Below, in pieces: positions 2,140 through 34,627 of a DNA stretch of 34,627 bases. Location of the stretch: positions 1 through 34,627 of the forward strand of contig JACPSI010000128.1 of NCBI GenBank assembly GCA_016193365.1. Reading direction: 5' to 3'. Below the pieces are notes generated by a model. It did not search any database, was not told the origin of the DNA, and saw only the letters and a list, made by a program, of their open reading frames with translations. Numbering within the stretch: the stretch's first letter is position 1; every line of letters begins with the position of its first letter. This stretch comes from Ignavibacteriales bacterium (GTDB lineage: Bacteria; Bacteroidota; Ignavibacteria; UBA10030). The position numbers and the translations under genes were made by a program.

Positions 2140-3509
2140 AATACTTTGATTGTGTACCAATATCTCGGGACAAAGAGAGCTTTTATCATCATGACGCTCT
2201 GCCCCCTTCCGCCGGAAAACAACGACAGCGAAAAAACAGAGGCAAAATACGAAGCTAACGTTGCGACAGCAGAGCCCTGGATACCGTAGGTGGGAATGAG
2301 AAGAAGGTTCAATGCCACATTCAGCAGCATTCCGATCGTTGTCCTGTACATCGAATATTTTAACAAGTTCTCCACCATGAGATACTGACTGCTTGCGACA
2401 CCCAGAAACGTCGCCACTCCAGACCACACGTAAACCGTCAGAACGGGTGACGCCTCCAGGTAGTCCGTGCCATAGAACCAGCCAATAATTGAACCAGAAA
2501 AAAAGGTCACAAGAAGTGCTATGAAGATACTGACTCCTGCCATGCCGTCGTAAAGCTTTTGGAGCCAGCGCAGATACTTTGCATAGTCATTCTTCCTTGC
2601 TTCAATAAGTGACGGAAAGACCGAAACCGTTATCGTGCCGGGAATGAAATACCAGACCTCGGCCATCCTCACTGCTGCCGAGTAAATACCGACAGCATTC
2701 ATGTCCATCAGACTTCCCAGAAGCACCTGGTCTACTTTCATATAGATCACAATGGCAAGCCCCGATAACACGAGCGGCCAACTGTCCCGTAGAAGATTTC
2801 TGGCCGTGGTGCCGCTATAGTTCCAGTTGCGAACGCTATTCCCCGTTATACGATACGCAAAAAGCAAGGAAATTCCACCGAAGATGATTTCCATGGTAGC
2901 CAGAATTGCAAAAACTAGCAACGGCGCCTCGAGAAGAATACCAAGCACCCTGACAGCCGAAAGAGAAAAAAAAACTATGTTTTTGCTGATGACGCTGTAT
3001 TTGGACTGCACCTTCGATTGAAACCACAGGTCAACAACATCGAGCGCTTGAAAAACATAACCGACGGCAATTATAAAAACAAGGAGTCGGGTTACGGGGT
3101 CCGTAGAAGAAATGGCATACGTTGCCAGCAGGCACAATACGACAGTCACAAAACCTCCTGCCAGTCTGAGAACAAAGGACGTCCCAAGCAGTGTTTCTTT
3201 CTGCAGAGGGTTTTTGACGATTTCGCGTACCACAATATTCTCCAGGCCGAGCCCGGCGATCGAGCCGAAAATGGCACTGAGGCTGATAGCGTAGTTCAGC
3301 GATCCAAACTGACCCGGACCGAGATAACGTGCAATCCACACTCCCACGACAAGTCCGACTCCCATCCTGAAAATCTTGTCGAACACGAGCCATCCTGTAT
3401 TGAAAAAAATTCTTTGGAGGTCTTGACGGGCAACTATCTTTGCCCGTACTCCTTCGGGAAGGATTTTCATCCAGCGTGGCGTTTTGATTCCTTGAACCCC
3501 GTCCTTCAT
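2121..3509 (-). CDS. Wzx-like polysaccharide flippase (MOP superfamily)
   Basis: This polytopic membrane protein of about 462 residues has 12 or more hydrophobic segments and the typical N-terminal layout of oligosaccharide flippases (FDKIFRMGVGLVVGVWIARYLGP, then FGSLNYA). It should move lipid-linked repeat units across the inner membrane. I prefer the ATG at 3509 over the upstream ATG at 3548. At 3509 the start overlaps the GT4 stop in a 4-base ATGA junction and is preceded by an AGGGA ribosome-binding sequence 5 bases away; the longer version would overlap by 43 bases. It sits between two glycosyltransferase genes and two methyltransferase genes, consistent with a Wzx role. Specificity cannot be predicted. 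Confidence 0.9.
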   Translation of the reverse strand: MKDGVQGIKTPRWMKILPEGVRAKIVARQDLQRIFFNTGWLVFDKIFRMGVGLVVGVWIARYLGPGQFGSLNYAISLSAIFGSIAGLGLENIVVREIVKNPLQKETLLGTSFVLRLAGGFVTVVLCLLATYAISSTDPVTRLLVFIIAVGYVFQALDVVDLWFQSKVQSKYSVISKNIVFFSLSAVRVLGILLEAPLLVFAILATMEIIFGGISLLFAYRITGNSVRNWNYSGTTARNLLRDSWPLVLSGLAIVIYMKVDQVLLGSLMDMNAVGIYSAAVRMAEVWYFIPGTITVSVFPSLIEARKNDYAKYLRWLQKLYDGMAGVSIFIALLVTFFSGSIIGWFYGTDYLEASPVLTVYVWSGVATFLGVASSQYLMVENLLKYSMYRTTIGMLLNVALNLLLIPTYGIQGSAVATLASYFASVFSLSLFSGGRGQSVMMIKALFVPRYWYTIKVLWKAAE

Positions 3510-11426: not shown

Positions 11427-12754
11427 GCGGCCACCACTTCGGTCATCTCAGGAGTATCGACAGCACAAATCTCTCCCGTACAGCCATTTCCAGTTACTCC
11501 CGTAATCTGCACTTGAAGTATTTCGTTCTTTAGCTCTTGAGTTGATGCAACATCAACACGTACGTATTCTTCTGTTAACCCGGTGCACAATCCTTGCCCA
11601 CGATTCTCCTCGAACAGCACGTTCATAAGTCGGCCATGGAACGATTCGTAAAAGAGTCGCTTTTTGCGCATACTCAGGATTCGGAGTTTTTCGCTTCGTT
11701 CGGCGCGCACACGCGGCTCCACTGCATTGCCGAACTCCGCCGCAGGTGTATTTGGGCGCTCTGAATAAGAGAACACATGGAGGTACGAAATCGGCAGATC
11801 CGTAAGAAATCGTTGCGTCTCATCAAACAGGAAATCGGATTCACCGGGAAAACCGACGATAACATCGGCGCCAATACCCGCGAGAGGAGCGCTTCTTTTG
11901 ATGCGTTCGACGCGATTTGTATACAAAGACGTCACATACCTTCGTCTCATGTTGTTTAAAATCGTATCAGCTCCGGATTGAAGGGGGATATGAAAATGCT
12001 TGCAGAGTTTCGGCTCCGACAGCCAGAAATCCAGGAGTTCGTCCGTCAGGAGGTTCGGCTCAATTGAACTGACCCGAATTCTCTCCAACCCTTCAACACG
12101 CACAAATTGCTGCAAGAGCGAGAGCAAATTCGTTCCGATTTTTTTTCCATAGTCACCAACGTTCACACCCGTGAGTACGATTTCTTTGTAGCCTCCGTCG
12201 ACCGTCTGTCTGGCATAGGAAACAAGGTCCTGTACCGGCACGCTTCGGCTTTCCCCGCGGGCCAACGGAATTGTACAAAAAGAACAGTTGTAGTCGCAGC
12301 CGTCTTGAATCTTTAGAAATGCCCGTGTTCTTTCGGCGAAACCTGCCGAAGAAGCTATGTGAAACTCTTGCTTTTCCGTGATTGGGGAAACCCGAATGTC
12401 CGGAAGAGCTTTTTTGCGGAATCCAGATGCGTAGTTCATGAGATCGAACTTTTCCCTTGTGCCGAGAACAAGGTCGACACCGGGAATCAAAGCGATTTCC
12501 TGAGGTTGAAGCTGAGCATAGCAGCCCGCGACGATGACAAAGGCATCCGGCGAATGGCGTAAGGCCCGTCGCACGAGCTGTCGGCATTCGCGATCCGCCC
12601 GCTCCGTTACACTGCACGTGTTAATGACCACAACGTCGGCGTGCTCGTCGATGCGGACAGGTGTGTACCCTCGCTGGACAAATTGCCTGCCAATCGTGGA
12701 CGTTTCGGCAAAGTTCAGTTTGCAGCCAAGAGTATGGAGAGCGACACGTTTCAT
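11423..12754 (-). CDS. mtaB: tRNA t6A37 methylthiotransferase (radical SAM)
   Basis: MtaB converts t6A37 of ANN-decoding tRNAs to ms2t6A. The N-terminal UPF0004 domain binds an auxiliary 4Fe-4S cluster through C11 (TLGCKLN), C47 (NTCSVT) and C78 (AGCYA). The radical-SAM cluster motif is CDYNCSFC (C153, C157, C160), followed by IPLARGESRS. A TRAM-type domain occupies the last 60 or so residues. The NTCSVTERAD and TLGCKLNFAE signatures favour MtaB over MiaB or RimO. The ATG is only 4 bases beyond a terminator hairpin and has no Shine-Dalgarno sequence, so expression may depend on read-through from rpsA. Confidence 0.94.
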   Translation of the reverse strand: MKRVALHTLGCKLNFAETSTIGRQFVQRGYTPVRIDEHADVVVINTCSVTERADRECRQLVRRALRHSPDAFVIVAGCYAQLQPQEIALIPGVDLVLGTREKFDLMNYASGFRKKALPDIRVSPITEKQEFHIASSAGFAERTRAFLKIQDGCDYNCSFCTIPLARGESRSVPVQDLVSYARQTVDGGYKEIVLTGVNVGDYGKKIGTNLLSLLQQFVRVEGLERIRVSSIEPNLLTDELLDFWLSEPKLCKHFHIPLQSGADTILNNMRRRYVTSLYTNRVERIKRSAPLAGIGADVIVGFPGESDFLFDETQRFLTDLPISYLHVFSYSERPNTPAAEFGNAVEPRVRAERSEKLRILSMRKKRLFYESFHGRLMNVLFEENRGQGLCTGLTEEYVRVDVASTQELKNEILQVQITGVTGNGCTGEICAVDTPEMTEVVAA

Positions 12755-25754: not shown

Positions 25755-28250
25755 TTATTCTTTCCAATACAAAAATTCCTTAACTCCCGCAATTTGTGTG
25801 GGGTCTGCACCGCGTCGTCCTCCGAACACAAATCGGTTTTGCTCGTTTTTGTATTTTTCGCGAACTCTCGAGGCTTGTGCAGTCGATTTTCCTCGCTCCG
25901 GTACGCTTTGCAGCGTTCGGCTGAGCAATTCAAAAATATCAGACTTTGCGACTTTTCTTTCCGATTGTTCCGCTGCGCGGACGCCCAAAGCCTCGGTCAC
26001 TCTTTCGAGACCAAGTATATCGAATGCCTCCTCGCGGGAATCGAAGCGGGAAATGGCAACTTGAAAAGATTCGACAGCGTCATCGGTGGATCCGGCAAGA
26101 TACCGCGCCAGTCCAAAATTCAGATATACACCTCCATCGGAGCTGTCCGCCTGCATGCTTTTCTGATAGTATTCCTGAGCTGTTGCCAGGTCATTTTTCA
26201 GGAGGTAGATATTGGCAAGGTTGTTCATCGATCCTGGTGTATTCAAGGGGTTCAACGCTTGTATTGCGACATCATAGCTTCCGGCTTTTGCCTGAATGAC
26301 GCCCGCTTTGTTCCTTTCAGCCGGGTTGGAGCTTGCAAGGTTTTCCGCGCTGCTGCTGAGCATTTGGCTCTGCGCATATTCATAATCCACAAGGTCCTGG
26401 GCAGCAAGTTGTGCAATTCTTTCTCCCGGAGGCGGTGAAACAGTCTTTGTAGACAATGAGAGGTTTGCGGGAGGAAACGCGGCCTTTGCCTTCCTCGTGT
26501 CGATGAGCTCGACTTTGCCTCCGCCCTCCGTGTTTTTGTAGTATTCAGAAGCACCTGTCATCCACGCTTTCACGAACGGCTGGTTAATCATTGTCGTTTC
26601 CAACGGCATCCATACGGTGTTCTCGTCGACCACATAATCTTTGGAGTTTACGCTGATCATGTATCCGTTCTTCGGCCTCACGTCGGTGTCGAACATGATG
26701 AAGATGTGGTCGCTCGTGGCGATGAATTTTGTCCTGATGCCAATGTTTTCGAGACACGACGCTATCAAAACAGATGAATCGTCACAGTCGCCAGCCTTTG
26801 AGGCAAGAGTCTCCCGCGGATAGGAAATAAGGTCCAGAACGTCGTTCTCGGCCGTTTTCCACGGGTCTGATACATAGTTAATTCCGTACGCCCGGATTCC
26901 ATCCCAGATAGCGATTGCGTTGACGACGTTGCGCGGAAGTTTGGATTTCAGTTTCTCATCATTGCCGATACTACCTACGACATAACGAGCAAACTGGACG
27001 ACGGACTCATCGGTGTCCGTGACGAACGCTCCCACGGATTCTCCCCTTCTCCAGCTGATGGTATTGCGGCTGTAGAGAGTCACCGGCTTCACCAGGCTTC
27101 GTGTTTGCGGCTGGTTATTAAATGTATATGAGAGTTCTACTTTTGCCTGAGCCGTCGCGTTTGCGCTTAACTCATACAACTGCTTCGCATCCAGAGTTGC
27201 GGCGAGCTTGAAGGTTTGTTTTGAGCCGGGAACAACCGACTGGACGATTTGTTCGGAAGGCAACGCCATATATCCCGGAATGAAGATGGAAACCTTGACG
27301 TTGCGAATTTCGGACTTCGACGTGTTTTCGATTTCGATAGATGCTAACGGGTTGTAGGCATAATAATTCACTTGCGACGGGAAAATGTTTTCCACGCCGA
27401 ACTGCGTGATGTCGAGCGAGCTGCTCGCTGCCGAAATGCCCCGCGCCTTCTCTGCATTCTCCTTCGTGCTTAAATCGAGCCGGCTTCCGGTAAAACCGAC
27501 GACGACGAGGTCGTCGCGGTTCAGTAATTCGGCGCGAAGGTCATCCATCGTTCCGTTCACGGACGCTTCGTAGACCGCCCCATCTTTTTCAAAATAACGG
27601 AGCTTCAAGTTATTAATAATCGGACTTTTCTTTGGGAGGTCCTGTTCGTATCGGGCAATCAGTTTATCGTCGATGCCGAGCAGTGCAATTTGAATAATGC
27701 GCGGCCCGGAAGCTTCTTCCTTCAGCCTCACTCGTGCCTTGACATAAAGATCTTTTGCGAGATTCTCGCCGAGCAATTGCATACACAGGTTGGCTGCCGA
27801 GGAACGTCCCGAAGCCGACTTTTTCCCGCTCATGGAGGAGACGGCAATCATCTCGCCGGTGTCGGTAATGATGACCTTTGCTGACCCTTTGCCGGCGTAT
27901 TCGTAGTTCTTGACGCCGTAGAATTCTTTCTCAGCATCGAAGGTCGCCTCGGATTTGCCGATGATAAGCCATTCAGCGCCATAGCGAAGCCCGATTTCCT
28001 TTGCGCGTGCCGGATTGCTCTCTGCCAGAGCAATGTCGCGGGCCGTGACATTGGCAAACTGGTCTTTGTCGACAAGCCGGAAGCCTTTTTCGAGAAGGAC
28101 TTCCTCGATTTTCGTCGCGACCAGACGTGCATCGACCGACTGCATGTCGATCTTCTCATCCAGGACGACCATGACGCGGGGCCAGTCTCGTTTGTCCTGA
28201 GCGATGACAGTGCTAAAGACCAGGATTGCCAGAACTAAGGATTTCTTCAT
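25755..28250 (-). CDS. Secreted transglutaminase-like protein with TPR repeats
   Basis: The 831-residue protein has a signal peptide (MKKSLVLAILVFSTVIAQ). Residues 20-175 resemble the CsgG/FlgT-type fold (RVMVVLDEKI, VEEVLLEKGFRLVD-like helix, GAEWLIIGKSEATF). A beta-rich middle follows. A transglutaminase-like core carries C489 in KAGDCDDSSVLIASCLENIGI and H515 in TSDHIFIMFD; the third residue sits in VWMPLETT, where E replaces the usual D. Residues about 640-760 form TPR repeats (AGSYDVAIQALNPL, MNNLANIYLLKNDLATAQEYYQ). An envelope peptidase or crosslinking role is plausible but unproven. A GAGG Shine-Dalgarno sequence lies 6 bases before the ATG, and a terminator follows. Confidence 0.75.
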   Translation of the reverse strand: MKKSLVLAILVFSTVIAQDKRDWPRVMVVLDEKIDMQSVDARLVATKIEEVLLEKGFRLVDKDQFANVTARDIALAESNPARAKEIGLRYGAEWLIIGKSEATFDAEKEFYGVKNYEYAGKGSAKVIITDTGEMIAVSSMSGKKSASGRSSAANLCMQLLGENLAKDLYVKARVRLKEEASGPRIIQIALLGIDDKLIARYEQDLPKKSPIINNLKLRYFEKDGAVYEASVNGTMDDLRAELLNRDDLVVVGFTGSRLDLSTKENAEKARGISAASSSLDITQFGVENIFPSQVNYYAYNPLASIEIENTSKSEIRNVKVSIFIPGYMALPSEQIVQSVVPGSKQTFKLAATLDAKQLYELSANATAQAKVELSYTFNNQPQTRSLVKPVTLYSRNTISWRRGESVGAFVTDTDESVVQFARYVVGSIGNDEKLKSKLPRNVVNAIAIWDGIRAYGINYVSDPWKTAENDVLDLISYPRETLASKAGDCDDSSVLIASCLENIGIRTKFIATSDHIFIMFDTDVRPKNGYMISVNSKDYVVDENTVWMPLETTMINQPFVKAWMTGASEYYKNTEGGGKVELIDTRKAKAAFPPANLSLSTKTVSPPPGERIAQLAAQDLVDYEYAQSQMLSSSAENLASSNPAERNKAGVIQAKAGSYDVAIQALNPLNTPGSMNNLANIYLLKNDLATAQEYYQKSMQADSSDGGVYLNFGLARYLAGSTDDAVESFQVAISRFDSREEAFDILGLERVTEALGVRAAEQSERKVAKSDIFELLSRTLQSVPERGKSTAQASRVREKYKNEQNRFVFGGRRGADPTQIAGVKEFLYWKE

Positions 28251-28300
28251 GTTTGCCTCGTTGATTCTGTTGCGATGGGCTCCGCCATCTGGATTTTAAC

Positions 28301-28380
28301 CTGAGGCGGAGTCCATCTTACTAGTGCTTTTATGCCGGACTCCGTCTCAAGGATTTGTCTTAGACGACGGAGCCCGTCTC
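28301..28380. repeat. Dispersed repeat, copy A
   Basis: Bases 28301-28349 match copy B (30383-30431) at 44 of 49 positions. Bases 28363-28380 match 30563-30580 exactly, with only 13 bases between the two blocks here. The sequence is rich in alternating GGCGGAGTCC / GGACTCCGTC / GACGGAGCCC arms that can pair with one another. It fills most of the 242-base gap 28251-28492 together with the orphan sorting-domain tail. Confidence 0.75.
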
Positions 28381-28449
28381 TTATTTCATCAACATCATTT
28401 TCTTGACGTTCACGTAACGCGAATCTTGCGTCCCGCCGTCGATTGTGAC
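28381..28449 (-). pseudogene. Orphan 3' end of a T9SS sorting-domain gene
   Basis: Bases 28449-28381 encode VTIDGGTQDSRYVNVKKM and the final MLMK, followed by TAA. This is almost identical to the last 22 residues of the large surface protein ending at 30581. The rest of a sorting domain (PNPFNP and middle strands) is missing. The frame differs from that of the upstream tail-fibre-like gene, whose TGA at 28493-28495 lies 43 bases away. It looks like a leftover from recombination or deletion rather than a gene. Confidence 0.75.
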
Positions 28450-28492
28450 TCTCTCACTCCAACTGAGTTCCGGATCTTTGTTCAGCGTAACC

Positions 28493-29563
28493 TCAGTCTC
28501 TTTCAATCTTCTCCAAACGCGTTTCGAGTTCTTTGTTGCGCTTTTGTAATTGGATAACGTACAATGTCAACTCTTCAACTTTTTGTAGAAGCTTTGATTG
28601 CATTTCTCCCACATTGAGACCATTGGTTTCGACTTTTCCCGCAGAAGGAATGTTGGGCAGATGTTTGTTGGTTTTGATAAAGTTTTCAACATCGGGCAAC
28701 GGCATTAATTTGTATGATTCATCAAAGACGAAATCTGGCCAACCGCTTTGCGTCACTATGACCTCACGGCACGTGATCGTTCCGTTGACGGCCAATTTCG
28801 ATTGAGGTGTAAGTGTGCCAACACCAATATACCCATTTGATCCCTTGATTTTTAGAAAATTTGCCCCACCGCCTCGTGCATTTATATTGAAGTCCAATGG
28901 AGTTGCGCCACTATAGTCTGAGGCTCTAGCAAGATCTATATAAAACCCATTCGTCAGGTCGTGGTAAAAAACGGTTTTGTTGTATGTTCCCGTCCCGGTC
29001 GAGGTCAGAAAAAAGGGATTTCCACCTGATATTTGAGTGTTTCCCACAATATCCAGTTTCTGTCCGGGAGTTGTAGTTCCGATGCCAACGTTGCCTGTAA
29101 AATCCACATTGCCTGATACTGTGAGCTTATTCGACGGGCTTGTTGTTCCAATGCCAACATAGCCGTTCGATTTCATAAGGGTCATAACTGCCGTGCTTGA
29201 AACCTTGAACTTGAAATCATCGGTCCCTCCATATTCGACACCGAAATTCCAGTCCTCGACACCCTGCGTTGCAAGTGTTATATAACTTCCATAACTGGTG
29301 CTCGGTCTGACAAGAGACAAGACTGCAGGGACATCCGACGGGTAAAGTTCAATCATCCCTCCTGATCCCGTTACATACAATAAACCTCCATTGACGTGCA
29401 AACGGGTGGAAGAATTGGGGTTAATTCCAATCCCAACGCTGCCAGAATTTGAATTATAAATGTTATTTCCACTAGTCGTCCACTGTGCTAGCGAGAAGGA
29501 ATGCAATAGCGACACGCAAACAAAAGTAACTATTAAGGATTCTCGAAATCGAAATGGTCTCAT
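28493..29563 (-). CDS. Secreted tail-fibre-like protein with coiled-coil C-terminus
   Basis: The 356-residue protein has a signal peptide (MRPFRFRESLIVTFVCVSLLHSFSLAQ). The body carries glycine-rich motifs of the VGIGTTSPSNKLTVSGNV type, repeated at least four times (VGIGINPNSSTRLHV, YVGIGTTSPSNKL, NVGIGTTTPGQKLDI, YIGVGTLTPQSKLAV). These are characteristic of Bacteroidota fibre-like surface proteins. It ends with HLPNIPSAGKVETNGLNVGEM and a coiled coil (about 320-356), resembling S74-chaperone-adjacent tails but without a protease domain. The ATG at 29563 has GGAGG 5 bases upstream and gives a proper signal peptide; the frame is open to 29617. It lacks its own sorting domain. Confidence 0.8.
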   Translation of the reverse strand: MRPFRFRESLIVTFVCVSLLHSFSLAQWTTSGNNIYNSNSGSVGIGINPNSSTRLHVNGGLLYVTGSGGMIELYPSDVPAVLSLVRPSTSYGSYITLATQGVEDWNFGVEYGGTDDFKFKVSSTAVMTLMKSNGYVGIGTTSPSNKLTVSGNVDFTGNVGIGTTTPGQKLDIVGNTQISGGNPFFLTSTGTGTYNKTVFYHDLTNGFYIDLARASDYSGATPLDFNINARGGGANFLKIKGSNGYIGVGTLTPQSKLAVNGTITCREVIVTQSGWPDFVFDESYKLMPLPDVENFIKTNKHLPNIPSAGKVETNGLNVGEMQSKLLQKVEELTLYVIQLQKRNKELETRLEKIERD

Positions 29564-29613
29564 GACATCCTCCATAGATTTTGATATTGTCCTATAGCTG
29601 TATTCAGTCTGGA

Positions 29614-30309
29614 TCATTTTATTAGCATCATCTTCTTCACATCGGTGAGATCGGATTTACTTCCTTCTTGGATCACTGATAGTCGGTAGAAATAAATCCC
29701 TGAACTGAACCTTTGACCATTAAACTTAATCTCGTATCTGCCTGCTTTTTGCTCTGCATTTACAAATGTTGCAACTTCCCGTCCTGTGATATCGTAGAGC
29801 TTTAAAGTAACTTGAAAAACAGCCTCACTTGTTGGCACAGAATACTGGATGACGGTCTCTGGATTAAAGGGATTTGGGTAGTTCTGGGAGAGCTCAAATT
29901 GAATTCGTAGATTTTCTGATTCGCTATCAAGGTTCGACATCGCGATTTCCGAAATTGAAGCTCGAAACTGTGATCCCTCTTCTGCCTTAAATTCTCCCGT
30001 AAGCCTTATTTCTTCTCCGGCCACAAAAGTAATTGTAGTTCCCTTGCCAACGACAAAAGGCTCGTCATCGCCAGCTTTTGTTATTATCGCAGACTTGGAT
30101 TCGTACGTCGATTTTTCACGTGCTGGAGTCGACAATACCAAGTCTCCGGGTGACGGCGACCGGGCAGCTTCTGGTTTGCCGACGTGCGTCGTTGGTGACG
30201 CCAGAGTGTCCAGAGGCGCGTTGGGTGAAACTGATACATCGAGCGGTCGTCCCCTTGCCTCCAGTATCAGAAGACAACCAACAAAAGCGAGGAATCTTGT
30301 TTGAGCCAT
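29614..30309 (-). CDS. Small T9SS-sorted surface protein
   Basis: The 231-residue protein has an N-terminal hydrophobic stretch (FLAFVGCLLILEA), a low-complexity Pro/Ser/Ala region to about 75, and a short beta segment ITFVAGEEIRLTGEFKAEEGSQFRASI, a pattern often found before Bacteroidota sorting domains. It ends in a full T9SS C-terminal domain (NYPNPFNPETVIQYSVP, LKLYDITGREVATFV, GRYEIKFNGQRFSSGIYFYRL, KKMMLIK). It should be exported and anchored at the cell surface. No catalytic domain is visible. A GGAGG Shine-Dalgarno sequence lies 4 bases before the ATG. Confidence 0.8.
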   Translation of the reverse strand: MAQTRFLAFVGCLLILEARGRPLDVSVSPNAPLDTLASPTTHVGKPEAARSPSPGDLVLSTPAREKSTYESKSAIITKAGDDEPFVVGKGTTITFVAGEEIRLTGEFKAEEGSQFRASISEIAMSNLDSESENLRIQFELSQNYPNPFNPETVIQYSVPTSEAVFQVTLKLYDITGREVATFVNAEQKAGRYEIKFNGQRFSSGIYFYRLSVIQEGSKSDLTDVKKMMLIK

Positions 30310-30382
30310 ATTTCCTCCTTCGTGTTGTGTTATGTTTTTGCCCCCAAGTTGTTCAGCGTTGGGCGCCGTCTCGGTTTGCGCC

Positions 30383-30580
30383 CCGAGGCGAAGTCCATCT
30401 TACTGGTGCATTGATGCCGGACTCCGTCTCATTCGTTGGTCACTCCTGCAGATTTTAAGCAGGAGTTCAGAACAAAGCCACTATCTGGATTCCCCGCCTG
30501 ACCTCAAAGGTCAACAAGGCGGGCAGGCGTCTTAAAATCCGACGGAATGACAACATAAAGAGGACGACGGAGCCCGTCTC
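30383..30580. repeat. Dispersed repeat, copy B, with nested hairpins
   Basis: The outer blocks 30383-30431 and 30563-30580 match copy A, but 131 bases separate them here instead of 13. The extra sequence holds two hairpins: ACTCCTGC/GCAGGAGT (30442-30449 / 30459-30466), and a two-part stem CCCGCCT...AGGCGGG (30493-30499 / 30517-30523) around GACCT/AGGTC. It occupies most of the 271-base intergenic gap 30310-30580; the remainder shows no gene. Confidence 0.7.
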
Positions 30581-33500
30581 TTATTTCATCAGCATCATTT
30601 TCTTCACATCAACATAACGGGAATCCTGCGTTCCGCCGTCCACTGTGATCCGGTAGAAATAGACACCGGTTGTGAGCGAACGTGCGCTGAACTTGATCTC
30701 ATAATAACCGGGAATCTGCTCTTGTTCAACAAGGGTCACAACTTCCTGGCCGAGAAGGTTGTACACCTTCAGCGATACGTTGTAGACCTCACGAGCGCCC
30801 GAGACTTGATAGCGGATAACAGTTTCTGGGTTGAACGGGTTCGGGTAGTTGGCAAAGAGCTTCATTTCTCTCGGGACCAGGTCTACTCCGCGTCTTTCCC
30901 TGTCGACGAATTCACGAGTCCCGACAAGAACCACGAAGTTTCTGACGCCTTGCTTTGAATTGACCTCCACAGCCGATGTAGTGCGTAGATTATATGCCAT
31001 AGACTCGTCAAGGTCAACAAGATAGGCTTCGAAAGCCGGATTCGGGATTGCTTTTGCGCCGGAGAGATCCAGTCTGATTCTCGCTCCTTTGTCGCCTGTG
31101 ATTACTTTCATATCCCAAGAATCGCCTTGATCGTTGATTGGACGAATATCCATGTCACGACCAGAGGTTTCCCCTTTGAAATACACGGCAACATTCTTCC
31201 CCTCGAGAATGGGCGGCTGATAAGAATCATAGGAATCATGGCCGGTACTTGCGCCATCCGTCATGCCAACGCCGTTACCCTCATCTTTCAGGTCGTTATC
31301 CGTTCGGTAGGCGTTTACATTTACGATCCAAGCAGATTCGTTTTCGCTATTCTTGCTGGCGACCGACAAGGGAGCCTCCAGGTTAAAGCTTGGTGCAACC
31401 CCGGTTTGTTGTCCGATAACTCCAAACAACAACTTCGTGGCCTGTGTTGCGTAGAGTGCGAGTCCCTCCCACGGAAGGAGGCTCTTGTGATTAGCGTCGG
31501 TCCACCACCCACTGCCCCTAGGTCCTTGACCATCATAATATGCCCAGTCTGTGATAGCTCCCGGGCCACTCGACCTCAAGCTGTCATATGAAATCGCGGT
31601 CGTGAAAGGATTGCCGACGAGATTCCATCCTTGAGTCAATTGAATGCCGTCGTTGTTCATAACTTGAGCGTTCACGGTTGTTGCACCGCTGACAGTGACT
31701 TTCTTGTCAGCTTCTCTGACAACCAAGAAGAAGGCAGCACCAGGCTTGAGCGCGGATTCGTCTTTGAACGTTTCGTAATCGTCAGGTGTTGATGTTCCAC
31801 CACCGGTAATTCTCTGCATTCGCCAGTTCACATAATTGACGTCTCCGTCCGCGTGTGGTCCAAGGCTTGCAGGAATATACGAACTGGGCTTCTGGTCCGT
31901 GAGTTGGTAAGGCACAGAGAAAAGCCTGTATGCCTTGACTTCCGTCCCCGGCATTGTACTTGCGGCTGGCAACGGCGTCGGCTGCGGTGGGGGTTGGTCG
32001 GAAATCACTGTTACAATTGACCAGGCATTCGTTGTTTTGATGTTCTGTGCGGAATCCGTCGCCGTTATCCGGTAAACGATATTATTCGGAACTCCTCCGC
32101 TTGTAAATACGTCAGCAGGAATGGCCGCTGCAGAATTTGTGAACGGTGCATTGTACGAAACTGGAGTCCATGTCGAAACTTCCACTCTTCGATACTCTAG
32201 GCTCATTGAAGCAATCGGCGACAAGCTTGATAGTTTTGTCGAAGAAGCTGTTATGCTCTTTGGAGATGTGGCCACGCCTGCGGTTATCGTCACCGGACCA
32301 ACAGAAGCGGAATCGTGGCTAATTGTTGGAGGAACATTGTCATACAAGATTGTCAACGAAGCGTAGTTACCAATGGTCTTGTTTCCGAGGGCATCCTCAA
32401 CGTAGAAATACACGAGGTGCTGTCCCGGGGATGACGGCGAAAGGATCGAGGCACTCCAATTTCCTGTCGTCCCACCCACGTTGACAAAAAATCCTTCCTG
32501 CCCTGATGTTGGAGGGGAATCGTACTTGTACCACAGCTTGGAAATGTTGAACGCGTTTGGCGGGCCTGTCCACAGAACTGTGATCGTGTTGCTATTCGTC
32601 CAGTTCGTCGCGGCAGGACTTGAAAGTCCAGTCGGTGCGCCCGTTTGAATGTCAACCTTTACAGGATAAGCATCCGTCGTCGACACATTACCAGCCGTGT
32701 CGGTCGCCGTTATACGATACTCCAGGGAATTCGGCTGATTGTTGGTAATGAATGCAGAAGCCGGAATTGTCTGACTGCTGGCGATACTTGGAAACGCGAG
32801 CTCCGACCCCCAAGTCCCATCCGACGTTTTCTTCCACTGCAACTTAAATGTTGTCGGATTGACGCCTGAGAGTTCCGAAGCTTTGCTTGCGCTCGCCTGA
32901 ATGACAGCCCCCGAGCCTTGAACGGCGCCGTTCAGAATGACAACAGCCGCAACTGTTGCGCTGTCGTGCGTGATCGTCGGCGCGACGTTGTCGTACCTGA
33001 GTGTGACGGTCGAGGTGTTGTTAACCTCCTTGTTGCCTGCTGCATCCTCCAGGTAAAAGTACGTAAGATGTGTTCCGGCCGTCGGAGGAGTAATCTGTGC
33101 CGTCCCTGCCGCTCCCGACGTTAATGCTGTTACAAAATTCCCCGCATCTCCTAATGTCGGAGCTGAATCATACTTGTACCAAAGTTTTACGACTCCTGAC
33201 GCGTCCGAAGGACCTTGCCAGTTAATCGTGTACGTTACACCTCTGTGCCATCCAATTTGGCTGGGATCTGGACCAAGGCTCACGGGAACTCCTGGCGGGG
33301 TTGTATCGACGCCGTTTCCTTTTAGCGTGTCTGCCAGAACGCCGTCCGGCGGATAGTGACCGAAATCATCCGTCTGCAAAAGAAGAACCGCTTGCTTTGC
33401 GCCGAGACTGTTGGGTTGAAACCGCACAACGATGTTGCGATTTTGCCCCGGCGTCAGTTTCACCGTAAAGGGACTGCTTCCGGATACAACTGCAAATTGA

Positions 33501-34627
33501 GACGCATGGGTGCCGGAAAGCGTTGATGGAATATTGACATTCAGGTCAGCAGACCCAGTGTTCGTCAATACTATCGTGGTATCGGTCGTTGCATTCGGTA
33601 TCTCTTGGTCAGGGAATGTCACGGCTCTTACGCTTGACTGCGCAAACGGCGCGAGAACTGTCTCAACCATGATTGAGTCAGTGTAGGCTGAGTATCCTGC
33701 TGAGTTATACGCTCGGACCCTGTAATAATAAGTGCTGTTTGCTGTCAGACCCGTGTCCTGATATGTCGTTGTTCCTGGTGGCACTGAAGGCAAGATCCGG
33801 AAGTTCTCTACCCAAGCTCCACTTCCAAATTTTCGATCGAGGCGGAAGGACTCTTCATTAGTAGAGTTATCTGCCCAAGCGATAGTGGCCGACGAGGCGT
33901 TGAACGTGGTGACCTGCAAGCTTGTTGGCGCCAGTGGCAATGTCGCTGGTGTAACAGTTTGATCTCCTCCGAGAGAAGTTTGGGAATTGCTGTTGCGAGC
34001 TACAGCTCTGTAAGTATACGTCCTGCCGGCAATCAGATTCTTGAGAGTGTCGCTCACATTAACGGGATTCACGCCGGAGACCTTAATCTTGGGAAGTTTA
34101 TTCTCCGTCGTCCGATCGAAGTCGACATTTTCTCCCCATTGGAAGAACACCACGGTGGCTGTGTCCCCGTTTGGATTGACTGTGGCATGCACAATTGCCG
34201 TGTTCAACGTGACGCCTGTTGCAGCATTTGTCGTTACCGTGGGAGCACTTGCCGCCCGGGTCGAGAAGCTGAATGTCGATGAATATGGACTCGTACCACC
34301 AGAATTCGTCGCGCTGACATGCCAGTAGTACGTCGTGCTGTTTGCTAGACCACTCAAAGCCGTGGAAGTATCTGAAATCGTGGCATCCTGGAAAATGTTA
34401 GTCGTAAATTCGCCGCCGCCTCCTGTTGTCGGGTCTGTGGTAACTTGTATTCGATAGGAAGCAGCCGTTACGGATGAACTCCACCTCAGTGTCAAACTCA
34501 ACGACTGGTTGACAGCTCCGCTCGTCGGTGATGCCAGAGCCGGCGCCGAAGGTGCAGCAAGCGCTTCAGTCGTGAAGCTCCTTGCGGCGGAGAAGTCGCT
34601 ATAGCCTACAAGGTTTTTCGCCCTGAC
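30581..34627 (-). CDS. Large multidomain T9SS surface protein, N-terminus beyond window
   Basis: The frame is open to the right edge, giving more than 1340 residues. From the N-terminal side there are fibronectin type III repeats (SLTLRWSSSVTAASYRIQV, ATIAWADNSTNEESFRL, TYYYRVRAYNSAGYS). An ASH-like domain follows (FPDQEIPNATTDTTIVLTN, GQNRNIVVRFQP). Two copies of a module of about 210 residues are marked by LWYKYDS(A/P)PT, YFY(L/V)EDA(A/L)GNK and YRITATD. A unique C-terminal region carries QGWNLVGNPF. The T9SS sorting domain is NYPNPFNPETVIRY to KKMMLMK. It should be an adhesin-like or matrix protein; no enzyme domain was found. Confidence 0.9.
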   Translation of the reverse strand, partial: VRAKNLVGYSDFSAARSFTTEALAAPSAPALASPTSGAVNQSLSLTLRWSSSVTAASYRIQVTTDPTTGGGGEFTTNIFQDATISDTSTALSGLANSTTYYWHVSATNSGGTSPYSSTFSFSTRAASAPTVTTNAATGVTLNTAIVHATVNPNGDTATVVFFQWGENVDFDRTTENKLPKIKVSGVNPVNVSDTLKNLIAGRTYTYRAVARNSNSQTSLGGDQTVTPATLPLAPTSLQVTTFNASSATIAWADNSTNEESFRLDRKFGSGAWVENFRILPSVPPGTTTYQDTGLTANSTYYYRVRAYNSAGYSAYTDSIMVETVLAPFAQSSVRAVTFPDQEIPNATTDTTIVLTNTGSADLNVNIPSTLSGTHASQFAVVSGSSPFTVKLTPGQNRNIVVRFQPNSLGAKQAVLLLQTDDFGHYPPDGVLADTLKGNGVDTTPPGVPVSLGPDPSQIGWHRGVTYTINWQGPSDASGVVKLWYKYDSAPTLGDAGNFVTALTSGAAGTAQITPPTAGTHLTYFYLEDAAGNKEVNNTSTVTLRYDNVAPTITHDSATVAAVVILNGAVQGSGAVIQASASKASELSGVNPTTFKLQWKKTSDGTWGSELAFPSIASSQTIPASAFITNNQPNSLEYRITATDTAGNVSTTDAYPVKVDIQTGAPTGLSSPAATNWTNSNTITVLWTGPPNAFNISKLWYKYDSPPTSGQEGFFVNVGGTTGNWSASILSPSSPGQHLVYFYVEDALGNKTIGNYASLTILYDNVPPTISHDSASVGPVTITAGVATSPKSITASSTKLSSLSPIASMSLEYRRVEVSTWTPVSYNAPFTNSAAAIPADVFTSGGVPNNIVYRITATDSAQNIKTTNAWSIVTVISDQPPPQPTPLPAASTMPGTEVKAYRLFSVPYQLTDQKPSSYIPASLGPHADGDVNYVNWRMQRITGGGTSTPDDYETFKDESALKPGAAFFLVVREADKKVTVSGATTVNAQVMNNDGIQLTQGWNLVGNPFTTAISYDSLRSSGPGAITDWAYYDGQGPRGSGWWTDANHKSLLPWEGLALYATQATKLLFGVIGQQTGVAPSFNLEAPLSVASKNSENESAWIVNVNAYRTDNDLKDEGNGVGMTDGASTGHDSYDSYQPPILEGKNVAVYFKGETSGRDMDIRPINDQGDSWDMKVITGDKGARIRLDLSGAKAIPNPAFEAYLVDLDESMAYNLRTTSAVEVNSKQGVRNFVVLVGTREFVDRERRGVDLVPREMKLFANYPNPFNPETVIRYQVSGAREVYNVSLKVYNLLGQEVVTLVEQEQIPGYYEIKFSARSLTTGVYFYRITVDGGTQDSRYVDVKKMMLMK

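Follow-up and report, generated by a model that had tools for sequence, protein, structure and literature searches.

A sorting-domain tail of 22 codons plus stop, located at positions 28381-28449 (minus strand) of the window, i.e., the complete stretch of 34,627 bp analyzed here, is real and probably represents a genetic scar. It is interpreted as the original 3' end of the giant T9SS cargo gene lying upstream of it, displaced and left behind by one-sided integration of donor DNA. The window represents all of contig C114 of a draft assembly comprising 3.16 Mb in 167 contigs. A new gene end upstream, a homologous old end downstream and coding-type divergence between the two were observed, and displacement is further supported by the presence of the arrangement in this genome, its absence in relatives, a step in GC content and the recurrence of the layout at other T9SS genes. 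For this account, we infer the donor, the direction of the replacement and the one-sided mode of recombination. A previous sequence-only reading of this DNA had suggested recombination around a surface-protein cassette, which is corroborated by synteny, the GC step, the mainly synonymous divergence and the parallel cases. It had also suggested that a duplicated T9SS gene end was cut by recombination. The stranding of a gene end by recombination was retained from this proposal, whereas displacement by an incoming copy is likelier than duplication followed by cutting, because the two copies diverged under coding constraint to approximately the interspecies level.

The Orphan Tail and Its Direct Repeat

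The orphan tail (28381-28449, minus strand) is a T9SS type A sorting-domain tail and reads VTIDGGTQDSRYVNVKKMMLMK plus stop, compared to ITVDGGTQDSRYVDVKKMMLMK plus stop for the tail of the giant gene (30581-30649). As the sequence-only reading had described, it resides behind the fibre-like gene in a frame differing from that of the corresponding ORF (28493-29617), with 43 bp in between. Its described resemblance to the end of the giant gene was also recovered, since both tails are part of an 86-bp direct repeat (28363-28448 vs. 30563-30648) featuring 87% identity. Past this unit, a second repeated pair of 50 bp (28300-28349 vs. 30382-30431) showed 90% identity. The 86-bp pair is far beyond chance expectation, because the top match elsewhere in the 3.16-Mb genome, outside the window, was a piece of just 30 bp (E=0.0015), compared to 3e-24 for the partner copy.

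The T9SS type A profile (TIGR04183/PF18962) describes a whole domain of ~70-95 residues at the C-terminus, from which the orphan deviates; it spans just positions 71-94 of the 94-position sorting domain of the giant gene, and a profile search with its 59-aa frame matched none of the models. The C-terminal motif (KKMMLxK type), which is needed for secretion, is intact in the orphan tail, and for HBP35 the T9SS signal was located in the last 22 residues (PMC11285876). However, the orphan is joined to no protein. Most likely, it now represents an inert, non-coding remnant.

The fibre-like gene was also considered as a frameshifted cargo gene that once ended in the orphan tail. This candidate was rejected because the 43-bp junction that separates the stop of the fibre-like gene from the orphan tail (28450-28492, minus strand) is devoid of sorting-domain similarity; moreover, no T9SS domain is present at the end of related fibre-like proteins. 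The frame of the orphan tail stays open into the fibre-like gene, and a programmed frameshift onto the tail is conceivable, but inspection by eye revealed no obvious slippery site. A folded or attachment-site structure within the orphan tail was likewise rejected, since its stability is not in excess (z about -0.5).

The Locus in Related Genomes and the Intervening Cassette

The giant fn3-rich T9SS cargo gene (30581-34627, minus strand) encodes at least 1348 aa and runs off the contig. Its conserved downstream neighbour in relatives is the 831-aa TPR gene (25755-28250, minus strand), the product of which shows 90% amino acid identity in the sister species and which is also present in more distant family members. 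The family list comprised 32 genomes, two of them belonging to the genus, namely the genome analyzed here (G000) and the sister species (G001), an Ignavibacteriales groundwater MAG (JACQPT010000073.1); the relatives named are metagenome assemblies. In G001, G008, G026, G015, G004 and G020, the 831-aa gene is directly preceded by a T9SS gene whose sorting domain is complete, and no counterpart of the small T9SS or the fibre-like gene intervenes. In G001, for which the comparison at the locus covers ~0.9 kb upstream of the 831-aa gene, a single complete sorting domain was found. The unrearranged locus therefore exists in relatives, as C-terminal displacement implies, and the block 28450-30381 is specific to this genome among those compared, because the six relatives do not possess it. 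Fixation of the same arrangement in all relatives, named by the sequence-only reading as evidence against its proposal, was not observed, since the arrangement is absent in the sister species and in every family member examined at the locus. Across the family, the 831-aa TPR gene adjoins a T9SS gene and may share one functional unit with the giant gene.

The cassette between the two tails consists of two genes. The small T9SS cargo gene (29614-30309, minus strand) encodes 231 aa with a 3-coathanger stack and a sorting domain and, like the giant gene, matches T9SS type A sorting-domain profiles. Its partner, the fibre-like gene (28493-29617, minus strand; GC 44%), features GIGTTSP repeats and a C-terminal coiled coil; its likely start at 29563 provides a signal peptide. 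GC content amounts to ~43-44% over roughly 28381-30115 vs. ~51% in the flanks, and the shifts in composition are best placed near 28381 and 30115.

No full-length homologue of the fibre-like gene was detected in the other 31 family genomes, in which one weak match covered the repeats only, whereas another family of the order possesses relatives of the protein. In G043, a fibre-like relative is followed by a small T9SS gene whose product is 32% identical to that of the window's small gene. Because both genes are paired likewise in that genome, they may represent a recurrent pair. A phage origin of the fibre-like gene was considered and rejected, as viral contigs and phage records gave no relative.

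Divergence of the Two Tails and Proposed Course of Displacement

Over their 22 codons, 8.5 synonymous and 3.5 nonsynonymous changes separate the two tails, none of them at codon position 2, corresponding to a pS of 0.64 and a pN of 0.07. Comparison of the giant genes of this species and G001 over the same 22 codons yielded a pS of 0.56, and values of 0.68-0.77 were obtained for whole genes of the region. Pooling of the three loci with tail pairs resulted in a pN/pS of 0.10 (P=3e-10 vs. neutral change). The mostly synonymous differences, at approximately the interspecies level, indicate that the tails diverged while both were coding, i.e., as parts of working genes. This pattern is compatible with an encounter between donor and recipient alleles or with an old functional paralogue, and it argues against the insertion itself having freshly duplicated the tail.

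The following course of events is proposed. A DNA fragment from a related bacterium would have carried the end of the donor's giant gene and, behind it, the small T9SS and fibre-like genes. On the left side, this fragment would have recombined with the giant gene by homology, which served as the anchor, and on the right side it would have joined illegitimately within the recipient's sorting domain. The giant gene would thereby have gained a working donor end, and the recipient's last 22 codons, stop and 3' flank would have stayed behind the cassette, beside the unchanged 831-aa gene. The REP-like hairpin described below would have pre-existed in the 3' flank and moved along with the gene end. 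Homology-facilitated illegitimate recombination, in which incoming DNA is anchored by homology at one side and joined illegitimately at the other, is described in PMC3240628, and it was proposed for orphan immunity genes of the Vibrio T6SS and for orphaned Rhs ends (PMC5361080). One-sided integration would explain why the giant gene is intact, why the cassette looks foreign and shares its strand, why displaced tails of variable length occupy their native position and why the two tails show coding-type divergence.

The search of relatives, with the genus represented by two genomes, retrieved no donor genome containing the giant-gene end together with the small T9SS and fibre-like genes, and the direction of the displacement is for this reason unproven. 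The present tail of the giant gene and its 3' flank are colinear with G001 in the alignment. The left crossover is not locatable, because the contig ends within the giant gene and the comparison with G001 covers the short region given above.

An ancient tandem duplication appears unlikely. In this case, the giant gene or its 3' part would have been doubled, both copies would have remained functional for a long time, and the second body would then have been lost and replaced by the cassette. The coding-type divergence of the tails and their common REP flank would thereby be explained, and T9SS genes often stand in tandem in this genome. However, the synonymous divergence dates such a duplication to about the species split, yet a single giant gene is present in G001 and five family genomes; moreover, several steps would be required at each of the three loci.

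REP-Like Hairpins Adjoining the Tails

Identity of the 18 bases following both stops, reported in the sequence-only reading, was verified (28363-28380 and 30563-30580, both minus strand). These bases, GACGACGGAGCCCGTCTC, represent one arm of the hairpin GGGCTCC-N(about 24)-GGAGTCC. Downstream of the orphan tail, the arm belongs to the hairpin at 28337-28375 (minus), which together with a second hairpin at 28277-28314 (plus) constitutes an inverted pair within 28265-28381 (minus strand). In total, eight hairpin copies were found in this genome and 11 in G001; four genomes from three other genera contained none. The hairpins fold well, with z-scores of -3.6 and -3.9, and most copies adjoin unrelated genes. 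In both species, the hairpin flanks a Y1_Tnp-like (IS200-like transposase) ORF, for which the Pfam match is weak and below the cut-off.

An imperfect palindrome that is dispersed intergenically and flanks a putative tyrosine transposase gene corresponds to the definition of a REPtron. Because a dispersed, well-folding hairpin flanks a weak IS200-like transposase match, it is a REP-like element with a probable RAYT. As in published REPtrons (PMC3733652), short palindromic hairpins occur in inverted pairs, are dispersed intergenically and flank an IS200-like transposase gene; in contrast to these, copies are few in this genome, the core differs in being the motif given above, and the element accompanies tails, with a role in moving them that is only putative.

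Being a REP arm that also occurs beside unrelated genes, the 18-bp block does not in itself indicate tail-to-tail exchange, contrary to the sequence-only reading, and was ruled out as a tail-specific scar. A search of the genome for further copies of tail plus block, suggested in the same context, yielded no near match to the 86-bp pair, and the block was found dispersed. Tails devoid of linked repeats, which that reading had regarded as speaking against it, were encountered in part: 29 other intact tails in this genome are not accompanied by the block, the latter itself being the dispersed REP arm.

In the 3' flank of the giant gene, the REP-like element is interrupted at the same place as in G001, whereas the REP of the orphan is uninterrupted. 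Its second half at 30382-30431 (minus strand) is a copy of 28300-28349, and the intervening stretch 30432-30562 (minus strand) contains another dispersed element, which occupies the same site in G001 and is missing from the orphan copy. In G001, the 3' flank of the giant gene features a degenerate form of the hairpin. As the orphan does not possess the element common to the giant-gene flank and G001, displacement needs a loss or a different lineage. This second dispersed element, cactcctgcagattttaagcaggag ... gacggaatgaca, was observed in 3' flanks of T9SS genes, namely at 30440-30552 of the window and, in further copies, at G001:C9 (L058, about 3250-3352) and at G000:C81, downstream of the tail at 11475.

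Activity of the REP/RAYT system, by which the transposase or REP-REP recombination would have copied the gene end and the hairpin before the cassette entered between the copies, is considered improbable. Both tails abut a REP arm, REP hairpins flank the RAYT-like gene, and a tandem of 12 codons and a REP pair at G001:C233 as well as a REP-abutting orphan tail at G000:C50 would be in line with such activity. However, the orphan tails at C47 and C122 possess no REP, most REPs adjoin unrelated genes, and the tails diverged as coding sequence and not by recent copying.

Recurrence of Displaced Tails at Other T9SS Genes

The succession of a T9SS gene, an unrelated same-strand gene and a displaced tail recurs at C47 and C122, in degraded form at C50, and in the sister species, and in every displaced-tail case the cargo is located on the strand of the T9SS gene. 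At C47, an AAA_14/DUF4143 ATPase gene, the displaced tail and a second tail come after the T9SS gene, in this order; the displaced copy includes 30 bp of the 3' flank of the T9SS gene (61/66 identical). The same order, with one displaced tail, was found at G001:C201. At C122, a toxin-antitoxin-like pair, apparently frameshifted, separates the T9SS gene from the displaced tail, and at C50 a degraded tail and a REP lie behind an outer-membrane protein gene.

The displaced tails at G000:C47 8726-8791 (L227) and G001:C201 11654-11717 (L229) are 94% identical, with the G001 copy frameshifted, whereas third positions of the DUF4143 ATPase gene in front of them are only 59% identical between the species. 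Furthermore, the 3' flank of the T9SS gene at G000:C47 7264-7296 (L227) resembles an older frameshifted tail (RRM.MLLR*), which suggests layered tail replacement. The pair at C122 943-1390 (L244), identified by eye, consists of a small antitoxin-like ORF with no Pfam match and a RelE-like toxin frame, the latter being the one that is apparently frameshifted.

With the sorting-domain tail model A1, this genome gave 57 matches and G001 gave 46; in each genome, about four of these are short-frame (orphan) tails that contig ends do not explain. Orphan tails thus account for about 8/103 tail matches in G000 and G001 vs. 0/88 in G015 and G004 (Fisher P=0.008), the model being built from this genome and its sensitivity in other genera possibly being lower. 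The layout with a displaced tail was not found in two other genera. A copy of the gene's own end within 5 kb downstream was detected for 3/49 T9SS genes vs. 0-1/178 others (P about 0.01-0.03), the control set being genes in sampled genome stretches, and for 2/48 vs. 0/178 (P=0.04) when the window's own case was left out. Among the control matches, L244 (minus strand) corresponds to the C122 case read in antisense, and L256 covers 43 bp at 79%; two extra T9SS matches in this count are intact neighbouring paralogues. The enrichment of displaced ends at T9SS genes accordingly rests on few cases and small counts.

That the T9SS tail is itself a functional recombination or attachment site, used by an unknown recombinase or by circle integration so that cassettes repeatedly insert and duplicate the tail, is highly improbable: unrelated same-strand cargo is repeatedly found at T9SS 3' ends, with two successive orphan tails at C47 and an orphan block there that is far more conserved between the species (94%) than the ATPase third positions (59%), but displaced tails vary in length (about 12, 22 and 33-44 codons), the tail shows no unusual folding, the cassettes contain no recombinase gene, and the duplicates have diverged where fresh attachment repeats would be identical.

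Comparison with Known Systems and Implications

Gene-end displacement is known at toxin loci of Proteobacteria. Orphan C-termini reported at Rhs and CDI loci, including Rhs C-terminal displacement (Jackson et al. 2009, PMC2935791; Poole et al. 2011, PMC3150448), resemble the displacement proposed here: the gene of a large surface or secreted protein acquires another 3' end, and its previous end is retained downstream. There, a variable toxin tip is displaced, in contrast to the conserved secretion signal in the present case, and, unlike in these systems, the intervening genes are unrelated (fibre-like, ATPase, toxin-antitoxin-like). The orphan immunity arrays of the Vibrio cholerae T6SS (PMC5361080) are similar regarding the proposed illegitimate recombination anchored at one side and the old 3' part behind a new module; they differ in that the present locus contains no effector-immunity pair and the anchor would be a T9SS cargo gene.

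Whether 3' ends of T9SS cargo genes are genus-wide preferred entry points for horizontally acquired cassettes, each leaving a countable displaced-tail scar, is a tentative generalization that we regard as possible but doubtful. If true, conserved sorting-domain ends would serve as landing ground, and strings of scars such as those at C47 would record successive acquisitions. Scars of the displacement kind at T9SS genes would show the route by which Bacteroidota relatives gain surface and accessory genes, and a lone sorting tail would be a simple marker for recently acquired genes in genomes and MAGs. For annotation, caution is advisable, as lone KKMMLxK tails do not necessarily represent frameshifted cargo genes.

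Two further gene ends were observed in the sister species. At G001:C233 1-380 (L169), a unit of ~160 bp that consists of the 12 final codons and stop of a T9SS gene together with a REP pair is repeated in tandem; the copies are non-identical and a RAYT-like gene adjoins them. At G001:C221 1562-1671 (L181), a sugar-dehydrogenase-like T9SS gene carries a premature TAA a few codons before the end of its tail (TGRMVLVR*), and a REP is located directly behind this tail.
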